From Bacillota bacterium (GTDB taxonomy: Bacteria > Bacillota > Clostridia > Christensenellales > CAG-138), in the NCBI GenBank assembly GCA_016282255.1, contig JAEEKE010000135.1:1-38646 (forward strand): 38,646 bases of DNA, written 5' to 3'. The notes beneath the pieces are model-generated. The model searched no databases and was not told the DNA's origin. It saw only the letters and a program-made list of their open reading frames with translations. Positions 9,579 to 23,528 of this stretch are shown here, in pieces. A program made the position numbers and the translations under genes. How positions within the stretch are numbered: the first letter of the stretch is position 1; each line of letters begins with the position of its first letter.

Positions 9579-9672
9579 TGCACCAATGGGGACGGTTCTC
9601 TTTGGTGCAATATGCAGCATGAAGTTGGTTTTAGCCCGCCCTGCACCAAAGAGAACCGTCCCCATTGGTGCA
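9579..9672. repeat. Perfect 31-bp inverted repeat with 32-bp spacer; each arm has 8-bp inverted termini (REP/MITE-like)
   Basis: 9579-9609 TGCACCAATGGGGACGGTTCTCTTTGGTGCA and 9642-9672 TGCACCAAAGAGAACCGTCCCCATTGGTGCA are exact reverse complements. Confidence 0.95.
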
Positions 9673-9771: not shown

Positions 9772-9870
9772 AAACTGAATGCCTGTATGCTGCCGAAGCT
9801 GTAGCCGGGTTTGCTGTGCCGGTGAGGGCGGAGGAGCGGTGCATTAAATATATAACAGGAGGTGAATTCT

Positions 9871-11427
9871 GTGTCCTTGGATACTCTACATATTATCCTG
9901 CCGGTCGCCGGACTTGCTCTCGGCGCCGTCGGCGGGGCCCTCGGAACCTATTTGGTAGACAGGAAAAATGCAGAATCAAAGGTCGCCAAGGCGGACGAAA
10001 TGGTCAAGAAGATGATCGACGACGCCCAGACGCGAGCCGAAACCCTCAAGAAGGAAACGATCCTCGAAGCGAAGGAAGAAGTCTATCGCCTGAAGAACGA
10101 AAACGAGAGGGAAAACAAGGAACGAAGAAACGAGCTCCAGCGCGCGGAGCGCAGGCTCCAGCAGCGCGAGGAGAGCTTCGACAAGAAGCAGGACGGTCTT
10201 GAACAGCGCGAACAGCAGCTTAACAAGCGCATCAAGAACATCGACGCCAAGGAAGCCTCGATCGACAAGCTCTATGAAGAACAGAAGCAGGAGCTCGAGC
10301 GCGTCGCGGGGATGAGTCAGGAGGAAGCAAAGGGCGTTCTGCTCGCAAACGTCGAGAAGGACGCGAGGCACGACGCCGCGCTGATCATCCGCGATATCGA
10401 GGCCAAGACCAAGGCGGAGGCCGACCGCCGCGCGACGAACATCATCTCGATGGCGATCCAGCGCTGCGCCGCCGACCACGTCGCCGAGGTGGCTATCTCC
10501 GCAGTACCCCTGCCCAACGACGAAATGAAGGGCCGCATCATCGGCCGCGAGGGCAGGAACATCCGCACCTTCGAGACCGCGACCGGCGTTGAGCTGATCA
10601 TCGACGATACGCCCGATTCGGTCATCCTTTCCGGCTTCGATCCCGTCCGCAGGGAGGTCGCCCGCATCGCCCTCGAAAAGCTGATCATCGACGGCCGCAT
10701 CCATCCCGCCCGCATCGAGGAGATGGTCGAAAAGGCCCGCAAGGAGGTCGACAATCAGATCCGCGAGGCCGGCGAACAGGCGGTCTTCGAGGTGGGCGTG
10801 CACGGCCTGCATCACGAGCTGATCAAGCTTCTGGGCCGCCTGCGCTTCCGCACCAGCTACGGCCAGAACGTGCTCAAGCACTCCATCGAGGTCGCGCATC
10901 TCTGCGGCCTGATGGCCACCGAGCTCGGCGTCAACGTCCAGCTCGCCAAGCGCGCGGGCCTGCTCCACGATATCGGCAAGGCCGTCGACCACGAGGTCGA
11001 GGGCACCCACAACCAGATCGGCGCCGATCTCGCCAAGAAGTACCGCGAGAACAACCAGGTCGTCCACTGCATCCTCGCCCATCACGGCGACGTCGACCCA
11101 GGCACGGTCGAGGCCGTGCTCGTGCAGGCGGCGGACGCCATCTCGGCAGCCCGTCCCGGCGCAAGGCGCGAGACGCTCGAGAACTACATCAAGCGCCTTG
11201 AAAAGCTCGAGGAGATCGCCAATTCCTTCGAGGGCGTCGACAAGAGCTTCGCGATCCAGGCCGGCCGCGAGGTCCGCATCATGGTCAAGAGCGACACGGT
11301 CTCCGATACCGACATCATCGTCATCGCGAAGGACATCGTCAAGCGCATCGAGACCGAACTCGAGTATCCCGGCCAGATCAAGGTCAACGTCATCCGCGAG
11401 ACCAGAGCGACCGAGTACGCGAAGTAA
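9871..11427 (+). CDS. rny: Ribonuclease Y
   Basis: N-terminal TM, long coiled coil, KH domain ([22 protein letters not shown]), HD domain ([13 protein letters not shown]...[11 protein letters not shown]), C-term [21 protein letters not shown] start at 9871 is 8 nt after AGGAGGT (9857-9863); the ORF-track start 9862 lies inside the RBS. Confidence 0.95.
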
Positions 11428-11436
11428 CAACAATAA

Positions 11437-11466
11437 GCGGCGCGCTTCGATAACGAAGCGCGCCGC
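11437..11466 (+). terminator. Strong hairpin after rny (no classical U-tract)
   Basis: GCGGCGCGCTTCG-ATAA-CGAAGCGCGCCGC, 13-bp perfect stem. Confidence 0.6.
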
Positions 11467-11467
11467 T

Positions 11468-11672
11468 GCTAAATTCGCCTGCGGCGAGCTAAATTTGCTG
11501 ACGCAAGCTAAATTTGCCTGCGGCAAGCTAAATTCGCTGCGGCGAGCTGAAGGGCGAATTTAATTTAGCTGAAAATCTATGATTTTCAATTTAGCTGACG
11601 CAAAGCGTCAATTTAGCTGGCGCATTGCGCCAATTTAGCTGATAAAAGCTGACGCGAAGCGGCAATTTAGCT
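11468..11672. repeat. Two back-to-back arrays of a 9-bp element ((A)GCTAAATT x4, then AATTTAGCT x5) separated by mostly hairpin-forming spacers
   Basis: (A)GCTAAATT at 11468, 11487, 11506, 11526; AATTTAGCT at 11562, 11588, 11610, 11632, 11664. Spacers include CGCCTGCGGCG, TGCCTGCGGCA, GAAAATCTATGATTTTC, GACGCAAAGCGTC, GGCGCATTGCGCC. Confidence 0.95.
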
Positions 11673-11705: not shown

Positions 11706-12074
11706 ATGGCGGACAGCATTATGCTTGACAAAGCAAAGGATTTTGCGGTTGAAATAGTTAAGACCTGTAAAGGCATTAAGGAAGCAAAACGAGAGTCCGT
11801 TTTGACAAATCAGTTGATCCGCTCGGGCACTTCTATAGGAGCTAATATTTTCGAATCCAAATACGCTCAGAGTACTGCCGATTTTATAGCAAAAATGCAG
11901 ATCGCATTAAAGGAATGCTATGAGTCCGAATACTGGCTGGAATTACTGAACAGGACTGATTGTTTGCCTGACGAACAGTATAGATCGCTTCGAAGCCAAT
12001 GCGGGTCCATACGTCGGATGTTGATCTCATCCGTAAACACTTCCAAAGCAAACATAAGCGAAAACCAGAAATAA
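11706..12074 (+). CDS. Four helix bundle protein (23S rRNA intervening-sequence protein / S23-like family)
   Basis: KAKDFAVEIVKTCKGIKEAKRESVLTNQLIRSGTSIGANIFESKYAQSTADFIAKMQIALKECYESEYWLELL, typical of the S23/IVP four-helix-bundle family. Confidence 0.85.
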   Translation: MADSIMLDKAKDFAVEIVKTCKGIKEAKRESVLTNQLIRSGTSIGANIFESKYAQSTADFIAKMQIALKECYESEYWLELLNRTDCLPDEQYRSLRSQCGSIRRMLISSVNTSKANISENQK

Positions 12075-12083
12075 TAAGCAAGT

Positions 12084-12110
12084 ATGCCCCCTGTAACGGG
12101 GGCATTTTTA
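12084..12110 (+). terminator. Intrinsic terminator
   Basis: ATGCCCCC-TGTAAC-GGGGGCAT followed by TTTTAT. Confidence 0.8.
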
Positions 12111-19367: not shown

Positions 19368-19454
19368 TCCCGGCTCCGAAAAACGCCCCGCTTCGGCGTA
19401 TCCTTATACGGATGCGCCGTTTACGGAGGCGCAGCATAAAGCTGCATAAAAAAC

Positions 19455-19502
19455 TGACCCACCGTGACAGCTTTCTCGGTCGGAAAGCGTCATAGTGGGT
19501 CA
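19455..19502. repeat. Long imperfect hairpin
   Basis: TGACCCAC-c-GTGACaGCTTTC-tcggtcg-GAAAGCGTCAta-GTGGGTCA. Confidence 0.7.
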
Positions 19503-19553
19503 TTCTCTGTCAAGTGCATGAAATGGGCGGGATCGACCGCATTCGCCCGCAGC

Positions 19554-19632
19554 CCGGCGAAGCCGGATTCAGCTTGCGAAGCAAATTTAGCCGGGCAATG
19601 CCCGATTTAGCTCGCCGCAGGCGAAATTAGCT
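19554..19632. repeat. Second copy of the hairpin array with AATTTAGCT-like linkers
   Basis: CCGGCGAAGCCGG-ATTCAGCT-TGCGAAGCA-AATTTAGC-CGGGCAATGCCCG-ATTTAGCT-CGCCGCAGGCG-AAATTAGCT. Confidence 0.9.
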
Positions 19633-22163: not shown

Positions 22164-22247
22164 TAAAGCACGATGAGCATCACGCATGATTTCGAAAGGC
22201 CTGTGTGTGCCATCTTTCACGAAGAAAAAGAAACTGGAGGAAAGAAA

Positions 22248-23528
22248 ATGAAAAACAAGATCCTAAGCGCGTTCATAGCCCTGCTTCTTCTGTTTACTGT
22301 TGCACCGAGAATAAATGCGGTTAATGCAACAGATTGGACTGTACCAGAGGGATACAATGAAAATGATTATAATAAAGCCGCTGCATTTCTTGAGCAAACA
22401 GATCCTAGTGGGATCAAGAACGGAGAAAGACTCTCTCCCGATTATGATGTGAATAATCCGGAGACATGGACGAATAATGCAGAAAGCAGAATAGGATTTG
22501 ATGAATATCAAGGCGAAATGAGGATAGTTCAATTTACAACAGCTGCTATGAATTTATACGGGGTACTTGACTTAACGGAATGCGATGCACTGGTATATGT
22601 ATGTGTTCACGGAAACAGGCTGACGGAACTCCTGATCTCAGGGGCTTCAATTTTGCACATTGACTGCGCCGAAAATCAATTAACCGAAATAGATTTATCG
22701 GACTGCCCTGCTCTTGAATGGTTTGACGCCGGGCAGAACCTTTTTAAAGAACTTGATTTCTCAGTATGCCCGAGTATTAATGCTATCACCTGCCACGCAG
22801 GCCAACTCGAGGAAATAAACCTATCTAACTGTCCCAATCTGACGTCGTTATGGGCATACTACAATTCGCTTACGGAACTTGATCTTAAAGGATGTCCGAA
22901 CTTGGTAGATTGCTATTGTGACTACAACAATTTAAACATTGTTGATGTAAGCAATTGCACTATGCTGCGATACTTTTGTTGTGGCTACAACAATTTGACA
23001 GAGCTCGACGTTTCGCACTGCCCGGAACTCATTCAGCTATATACGCAAGGCAATCCAATATCGGAACTTGACTTGAGCAATAATCCTTCACTTCCTCTTG
23101 ATCTTGTAAGGGCATCCGGGGACGGCACGATCGGTTATTTCTTTGAGGACGGTTGGCAAGGTATTCAGTCAATAGTATATGCTCAGCCGAATGAAGGGAG
23201 CGCTTTCAAAGACGCCGAGTTCCTCGGTTGGTACAATGATTCGGGGGAGCTGTTATCGACCAGTCTTGAATACAACTTCTCGAGTGTTATAAACTCCGAG
23301 ACCGTGCTTATCGCCCGCTTCTCCGGCGGAGCGGAGCCAGTGCTTCCCGGTGATATCGATATGAACGGCGAAGTTGCGGTATCGGATGCGATCCTCGCTT
23401 TGCGCGCGGCAATGGGCATATACGAGCTGAACGCCGAAGAATTCGTGGCCGGCGATATGGACGGCAGCGGCTCCGTCACCGTTTCGGACGCGGTGCTGAT
23501 CCTGCGCACGGCCATGGGCATCGCATAA
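22248..23528 (+). CDS. Secreted leucine-rich-repeat protein with C-terminal type I dockerin
   Basis: Signal peptide MKNKILSAFIALLLLFTVAPRINA; eight LRR units such as LDLKGCPNLVDCYCDYNNLNI; dockerin GDIDMNGEVAVSDAILALRAAMG...GDMDGSGSVTVSDAVLILRTAMGIA. Start at 22248 after GGAGGAAAG. Confidence 0.85.
   Translation: MKNKILSAFIALLLLFTVAPRINAVNATDWTVPEGYNENDYNKAAAFLEQTDPSGIKNGERLSPDYDVNNPETWTNNAESRIGFDEYQGEMRIVQFTTAAMNLYGVLDLTECDALVYVCVHGNRLTELLISGASILHIDCAENQLTEIDLSDCPALEWFDAGQNLFKELDFSVCPSINAITCHAGQLEEINLSNCPNLTSLWAYYNSLTELDLKGCPNLVDCYCDYNNLNIVDVSNCTMLRYFCCGYNNLTELDVSHCPELIQLYTQGNPISELDLSNNPSLPLDLVRASGDGTIGYFFEDGWQGIQSIVYAQPNEGSAFKDAEFLGWYNDSGELLSTSLEYNFSSVINSETVLIARFSGGAEPVLPGDIDMNGEVAVSDAILALRAAMGIYELNAEEFVAGDMDGSGSVTVSDAVLILRTAMGIA

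Follow-up and report, generated by a model that had tools for sequence, protein, structure and literature searches.

A convergent array of linker-separated mini-hairpins beside a four-helix-bundle gene: candidate end structure of a small mobile element in Clostridia

What is the role of a short sequence that is repeated nine times between two bacterial genes, four times in one orientation and five times in the other, with a small hairpin in most of the intervals? This question is raised by positions 11468-11672 of a 38,646-nucleotide stretch of DNA (the window), which is contig C21 of a 2.16 Mb metagenome-assembled genome (MAG) of a Bacillota bacterium (G000) and which we compared with 61 relatives. 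The array is situated between the RNase Y gene (9862-11427) and a small gene for a four-helix-bundle protein (11706-12074), with FeoB converging from the opposite side. An original prediction made from the sequence letters had described the two-orientation array and had proposed that its spacers vary in sequence but keep their pairing, owing to selection or templated copying at the structure level. The evidence presented here somewhat favors the view that a small selfish DNA element has the array as its cis-acting end structure; such an element resembles the repetitive extragenic palindrome (REP)/RAYT systems but works with an Avd/IVP bundle protein.

Nine exact copies of the octamer AATTTAGC are present at 11468-11672, while only 0.94 ± 1.0 are expected by chance in the whole window. 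The four inverted copies start at 11468, 11488, 11507 and 11527 on the minus strand and are followed by five forward copies at 11562, 11588, 11610, 11632 and 11664 on the plus strand, which confirms the predicted array. The linker 9-mer AATTTAGC(T) is exact in eight of the nine cases, the first copy being TGCTAAATT. The left arm (11467-11534, minus strand) is composed of the inverted linkers (11467-11475, 11487-11495, 11506-11514 and 11526-11534) and the hairpins CGCCTGCGGCG (11476-11486), TGCTGACGCA (11496-11505) and TGCCTGCGGCA (11515-11525) between them. It is followed by a hinge (11535-11561, plus strand; CGCTGCGGCG-AGCT-GAAG-GGCGAATTT), in which CGCTGCGGCG (11535-11544) stands directly after the fourth linker and GGCGAATTT (11553-11561) is complementary to the left-end sequence AAATTCGCC (11471-11479). 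The right arm (11562-11672, plus strand) contains the five forward linkers AATTTAGCT, the hairpins GAAAATC-TAT-GATTTTC, GACGC-AAA-GCGTC and GGCGC-ATT-GCGCC, and the decayed unit GATAAAAGCTGACGCGAAGCGGC. The non-palindromic exception among the spacers, which had been noticed before as an imperfect last spacer, covers 11641-11663 and consists of a decayed linker GATAAAAGCT and a hairpin with one mismatch. Folding of the array block yielded a z-score of -3.7 against dinucleotide shuffles. At its left end the array adjoins, at a distance of -1, a hairpin with a perfect 14-bp stem (11436-11467; AGCGGCGCGCTTCG-ATAA-CGAAGCGCGCCGCT).

The proposed genome-wide search for two linkers enclosing a spacer (AATTTAGC-N8-24-AATTTAGC) revealed 22 occurrences at six loci in the window's own genome and none for the reversed-pattern control. 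The two-linker pattern was present in 8 of the 61 relatives, the lone match in G055 being apparently fortuitous. When bacterial and archaeal genomes were scanned, many matches came from rumen and gut MAGs of Oscillospiraceae, Ruminococcus and Clostridia, together with chance matches in AT-rich genomes. All parsed AATTTAGCT elements display a single architecture, in which inverted linkers with short hairpins are followed by a hinge and by forward linkers with longer hairpins. The hinge layout of the window is common to other elements; in the parsed elements the hinge ends in GGCGAATTT-AATTTAGCT, and GGCGAATTT pairs with the left-end AAATTCGCC. Each element carries six to nine linker copies with concerted identity on both arms, and all copies read here are intergenic. 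In 293 distinct spacers of the AATTTAGCT family, 85.4% of the symmetric positions are Watson-Crick pairs, compared with 28.7% (sd 1.2%) in shuffled spacers. Hairpin structure is a conserved feature of the array spacers, and pairing is retained while the sequence changes, as had been predicted. A variant-linker array (AATTTCGCT) accompanied by near-identical 18-bp units was found on another contig of the same genome between a T-box-like terminator and metG (L018 1060-1600, G000:C109).

The gene 33 bp downstream of the array (plus strand) encodes a protein of 122 amino acids belonging to TIGR02436 (108.5 bits; cut-off 24) and PF05635 (23S_rRNA_IVP; 97 bits; cut-off 33.8). Its AlphaFold2 model has a mean pLDDT of 94. 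Foldseek identified 2RLD as the closest structure and also matched 2GSC (S23 family) and Avd, the accessory protein of diversity-generating retroelements (DGRs; 4DWL/8UB7). In G006, G007, G008 and three named rumen or gut MAGs, tblastn detected close relatives next to AATTTAGCT arrays. Genes near AATTTAGCT arrays are always located beyond the right arm and point away from the array, and all 13 AATTTAGCT-linked genes found belong to one clade, which covers five host families (hosts f1, f35, f43, f53 and f70, and rumen MAGs). Arrays of this two-arm architecture also accompany other TIGR02436 genes of relatives, but their linkers differ; among them are GTGAAAT, GTGAAGT, ATGAAAT, TCGATAT, GCGATAT, ATGATAT, AGTTATAT, GTGGTAT and ATGAATT. 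We collected 116 distinct TIGR02436 genes from the relatives and from a class-wide sample of Clostridia. A relaxed detector of convergent arrays assigned a score of at least 4 to 67 and of at least 5 to 53 of them, compared with one of 232 shuffled regions (score 4). With a strict detector, 40 of the 116 genes were positive, compared with a single case among 580 shuffles and 7 among 190 control open reading frames (ORFs). Association of the array with the four-helix-bundle gene is all but certain. A description of this link was not found in open-access full text on Gut-1, on IVP with repeats or on AATTTAGCT.

Among the TIGR02436 genes examined, the classical 'VWQKA' IVP branch does not display the array architecture. 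Genes of the 'SKQLLRSGTS' branch are instead flanked by inverted simple repeats, for instance ATTCACTATTCATT. Such inverted tandem repeats (AATAATGAATAGTGAATAATG, AATTCGGAATTC and others) surround the second-branch genes at L231, L233, L240, L241, L244, L263, L264 and L267, which perhaps represent a less elaborate version of this kind of element. Nested or duplicated elements also occur, namely an array behind a fragment of the four-helix-bundle gene (L094 5500-6400), a gene broken by a stop (L255) and a leader in tandem copies (L252 1-420).

Mapped onto a maximum-likelihood tree of 45 proteins, the linker required 14 changes (minimum 11) as opposed to 29.8 with shuffled labels. The Mantel correlation between linker and protein was 0.43-0.44, a value reached in 0 of 5001 permutations. 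Up to four linker classes occur within single genomes. The linker differs among protein clades and tracks the protein tree. Across the 61 relatives, the presence of AATTTAGC arrays goes together with that of the AATTTAGCT-type gene (p = 2.9e-5), and the KGH-type gene is likewise associated with GTGAAAT arrays (p = 1.1e-4). G000, with its 22 AATTTAGC matches, and G006, with 31, contain no GTGAAAT match, and the reverse holds for G001, G005 and G023; G007, which has two GTGAAAT matches, is an exception. In their linker class, stand-alone arrays match the protein that resides in the genome. The four-helix-bundle protein probably acts in trans on its cognate arrays.

Comparison of orthologous sites pointed to mobility. 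Among readable congeners, G000 and G006 are the only ones that carry array and gene 3′ of RNase Y; the others contain different sequence after RNase Y, and G003 was unreadable. The G000 and G006 arrays at this site differ by one whole unit (GGCGCATTGCGCC), demonstrating the gain or loss of units across species for which the original prediction had asked. The left-end hairpin of the G006 ortholog differs with compensated pairs. A second informative site lies downstream of one tRNA terminator, where G005 and G001 carry a ATGAAATC element with its gene, G008 a matching left arm (array only, the contig ending there), G009 a remnant and G000 a CATCATT array without a gene, while five congeners are empty. 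The gene-less AATGATG/CATCATT array (L373, G000:C129) stands right after the terminator; behind it lies a second, partial copy, in which a portion of the terminator is repeated. A cognate gene class for it was found in G007 (L249). The array at G000:C60 shares 91.4% identity with a G006 array whose flanks are unrelated, but 80.3% with that at the orthologous site, where the flanks are 77% and 70% identical. Being closer to a non-orthologous copy, it argues that arrays are copied or homogenized between loci. This similarity indicates copying or homogenization of whole arrays and not of structure alone; conserved pairing stands, and templated copying at the structure level was not shown. Dispersed copies combined with presence and absence at orthologous sites are what is generally expected of a mobile element, and the sequence comparison makes it very likely that the array is a mobile or selfish one. 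The original interpretation is thereby supported in part; the dispersed family, the gene linkage, the linker variants and the kinship to Gut-1 had escaped it.

The insertion sites share a feature at the left end. A hairpin with a net stem of at least 10 bp adjoins it in 31 of 45 gene-linked arrays, compared with 58 of 1800 random positions, and many of these hairpins are tRNA terminators that start directly after CCA. Among 32 AATTTAGCT elements oriented by their hinge, 18 had an abutting hairpin at the left end and 1 at the right end. A left edge consisting only of terminators (stem and T-run) was rejected with just 6 of 46 cases; what the left ends have in common is a perfect hairpin, whether or not it has a T-run. 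In one sub-lineage, arrays at separate loci are accompanied by a recurring hairpin GCGGTGTACTTC..., which is found nowhere else in G000. Since it travels with the arrays, it can belong to the element. Its classification as an independent stand-alone repeat was discarded, the single G000 copy being located at an array.

Does the array act as DNA or as RNA? On the AATTTAGCT strand, the loops are GNA in 56 and TNC in 2 cases, and GNNA in 41 and TNNC in none; the remaining linker families show the same polarity. In DNA, mini-hairpins are classically extra-stable when C-G closes a GNA or GNNA loop. RNA hairpins would favor GNRA loops, but GNRA was not preferred over GNYA (19 of 46 GNNA loops), and G-U did not significantly outnumber A-C mismatches (21 versus 11, p = 0.11). 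The loop and mismatch pattern leans towards selection at the DNA level and is not proof of it. A σ70-like promoter is positioned between array and gene in 13 of 33 testable elements versus 8% in shuffles, which places the array outside the mRNA in those 13 elements. On balance, a mechanism based on DNA hairpins has about an even chance of being correct.

A complete element comprises the left-end hairpin, the inverted linker-hairpin array, the hinge and the forward array, usually followed by the Avd/IVP-type gene. According to a DNA-hairpin mechanism, the units would fold into very stable mini-hairpins with GNA or GNNA loops in single-stranded DNA. The four-helix-bundle protein, whose fold relatives are pentamers, might bind linker and hairpin with a family-specific sequence preference and join the two arms. 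A host enzyme acting on single-stranded DNA could then place a copy of the element at the 3′ foot of a further hairpin, and gene-less arrays would be non-autonomous copies that relate to the complete element as REP does to RAYT.

Several observations weigh against this selfish DNA element. Most AATTTAGCT arrays, about 27-62 bp before the gene, leave no room for a promoter in between, and the array may be transcribed in this family. The published description of Gut-1, an Rfam family related to the arrays, is that of a structured RNA that shows covariation. In the GCGGTGTACTTC sub-lineage, the hairpin of the target cannot be told cleanly from that of the element, and the 122-amino-acid protein has no known or visible enzymatic activity. 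Genome comparison revealed no transposition, target-site duplication or excision, the element boundaries being imprecise, and nearly all data derive from MAGs. G025, G013, G047 and G011 contain an array class without the cognate gene, some of these genomes being incomplete. Finally, agreement between linker and protein tree is partly expected from joint inheritance because linker and gene are physically linked; less trivial than this are the concerted identity of copies across the two arms and the agreement with arrays dispersed elsewhere.

A rival is an element that operates at the RNA level, in which the array is transcribed and the four-helix-bundle protein binds its structured RNA much as Avd and reverse transcriptase bind that of DGRs. 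The element would either spread by being copied via RNA, or its transcript would regulate or decoy the protein, Gut-1 being a true small RNA. The description of Gut-1 as a structured non-coding RNA (PMC2864571), its above-threshold matches to left arms, the similarity of the fold to Avd in DGR ribonucleoprotein structures and the promoter-less AATTTAGCT arrays are in line with this idea, as is the insertion beside terminators, which resembles group IIC introns. Apart from the loop and mismatch data and the promoters 3′ of the array in other families, the inverted symmetry argues against it, as half of the units would be antisense in either transcript. Moreover, a reverse transcriptase (PF00078) was not found in the array-rich G007, G013 and G025, two of which are 80-88% complete, and an enzyme of this type acting in trans was discarded on these grounds. 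We consider the RNA-level explanation unlikely.

Slightly less probable still is mobilization in trans by an unrelated transposase, with the four-helix-bundle gene as passenger or regulator. Miniature inverted-repeat transposable elements and REPs are moved in trans, and the bundle protein has no catalytic motif. Nevertheless, Y1 (IS200/RAYT) matches do not track the arrays in the 61 relatives, with none in G025 and G008 and six in G029, which lacks the AATTTAGC array class, and Y1 transposase was rejected as the acting enzyme. The sole RAYT-like gene of the genome (G000:C117, L192 2779-3522) is flanked by its own palindrome TGCACCAA, unlike the arrays. Matching linker specificity was found only for the four-helix-bundle gene, other transposase families not having been surveyed. 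A host-useful dispersed repeat (bidirectional terminator, stabilizer of mRNA 3′ ends, gyrase or nucleoid site, similar to bacterial interspersed mosaic elements (BIMEs)) with the gene as a mere frequent neighbor would fit the intergenic copies, the adjoining terminators and the strong folding, but is very improbable in view of the clade-specific linkers, the absence from most orthologous sites in the genus, the constant end and orientation of the gene and the different families at one tRNA site.

The odds are slightly below even for a broader generalization: Avd/IVP bundles might be specificity factors of a class of prokaryotic mobile elements that use arrays of single-stranded mini-hairpins with clade-specific linkers as ends and whose insertion takes place where a terminator hairpin has its 3′ foot. 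The Gut-1 'RNA', the intervening sequences (IVSs) of 23S rRNA and the four-helix-bundle genes flanked by simple repeats would then be branches of one class, and Gut-1 would be reinterpreted as one arm of a DNA element. An orphan protein family and an orphan 'RNA' family gain a shared context. The function of 23S rRNA IVP/S23/TIGR02436 proteins and the movement of IVSs have been questions since the 1990s, and a gene context with clade-specific target motifs makes both directly testable. It also suggests that a RAYT-like arrangement evolved in which a small bundle protein stands in place of a known transposase.

Further features of the window concern the same family or its surroundings. The four-helix-bundle gene is followed by a terminator-like hairpin of the intrinsic type, as read from the sequence (12086-12109, plus strand; GCCCCC-TGTAAC-GGGGGC-ATTTTT). 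A decayed half element of the AATTTAGCT family (19541-19632, minus strand) comprises hinge and left arm without a right arm, in the order CGGCGAAGCCG-GATTCAGCT-TGCGAAGCA-AATTTAGCC-GGGCAATGCCC-GATTTAGCT-CGCCGCAGGCG-AAATTAGCT. A palindromic repeat of about 55 bp (GACCCACYRTGACA...TCATAGTGGGTC-like) occurs near three AATTTAGCT arrays of G000 (window 19446-19503, L021 ~1395-1445 and L014 ~675-730) and is possibly another small repeat family. Large proteins of the secreted type with C-terminal dockerin-like repeats (DVDFDGSVTVTDALLIMR..., GDMDGSGSVTVSDAVLILR...) are encoded at 145-2334 and 22173-23528, which suggests a fiber-degrading gut bacterium.

How do the arrays compare with known systems? 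Rfam Gut-1 (RF01706) consists of three hairpins separated by GUGAAAU linkers and corresponds to the left arm of GTGAAAT, GTGAAGT, ATGAAAT and ATGATAT elements. The model matched seven left arms (L251, L247, L253, L248, L259, L258 and L252) with 50.9-76.5 bits at a gathering cut-off of 50, so that Gut-1 is one arm of the hairpin-array element class; right arms were matched on the opposite strand. At 25.1 bits, below this cut-off, the left arm of the window (11466-11538) is a sub-threshold relative. Gut-1 was described as a structured non-coding RNA from human gut metagenomes only (Weinberg 2010, PMC2864571), and it covers one arm without the second arm and the gene. Matches to Rfam mir-583, mir-3122 and Xoo2 were dismissed as sub-threshold palindrome artefacts.

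REP/BIME sequences and their RAYT (TnpA_REP), the 'REPtron' (PMC8266576), share with the arrays dispersed intergenic hairpins in both orientations, a short conserved tag next to a palindrome, a dedicated gene beside some copies and a tag specificity that follows this gene. In contrast, the protein is an Avd/IVP four-helix bundle without an HUH domain, the stems are free to vary while the linker alone is fixed, and a fixed two-arm array with a hinge adjoins terminator-like hairpins. A classical REP/BIME with an HUH Y1 transposase was rejected on this basis, as was a plain terminator by the criteria of that class. In the window, TGCACCAA(T)GGGGACGGTTCTCTTTGGTGCA also forms a REPIN-like inverted pair at 9581-9672, which matches the palindrome of the RAYT-like gene; a separate REP/RAYT system coexists with the arrays in G000.

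The 23S rRNA IVSs of Leptospira and Coxiella, which harbor S23p/IVP genes, have the protein family, the small size and the hairpin-forming ends in common with the element, whereas the latter resides outside rRNA in the RNase Y-FeoB interval, carries linker-hairpin arrays and has gene-less dispersed copies. In Coxiella, tandem GACAGAT heptamers in variable number are found just before the S23p gene (PMC4990558), which by analogy may be a reduced counterpart of the arrays. A role of the IVS ORF in mobility was proposed by Ralph and McClelland in 1993, as cited in PMC4990558. DGRs resemble the system in the fold of Avd (Foldseek TM 0.75/0.84 with 4DWL), but no reverse transcriptase is adjacent; the only RVT_1 match of the genome is on contig C8 and not on that of the window. 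Template and variable repeats did not turn up, no search having been aimed at them. Cas-less hypervariable interspersed repeat arrays (Altae-Tran 2023, PMC10910872) likewise combine constant repeats, variable spacers and nucleic-acid-related neighbor genes, but their spacers are not described as palindromic and the systems that the text names encode other proteins; the only mention of 23S rRNA IVP is in a figure legend on associations of CRISPR adaptation modules. CRISPR itself was excluded by the palindromic spacers, the convergent arms and the neighbors RNase Y, four-helix-bundle protein and FeoB, PADLOC not having been applied. As the original prediction had maintained, checking of the class criteria identified the array as neither CRISPR nor a known REP. 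The element class is neither IVS, DGR nor CRISPR and, although it fails the defining HUH transposase, it works like REP/RAYT.
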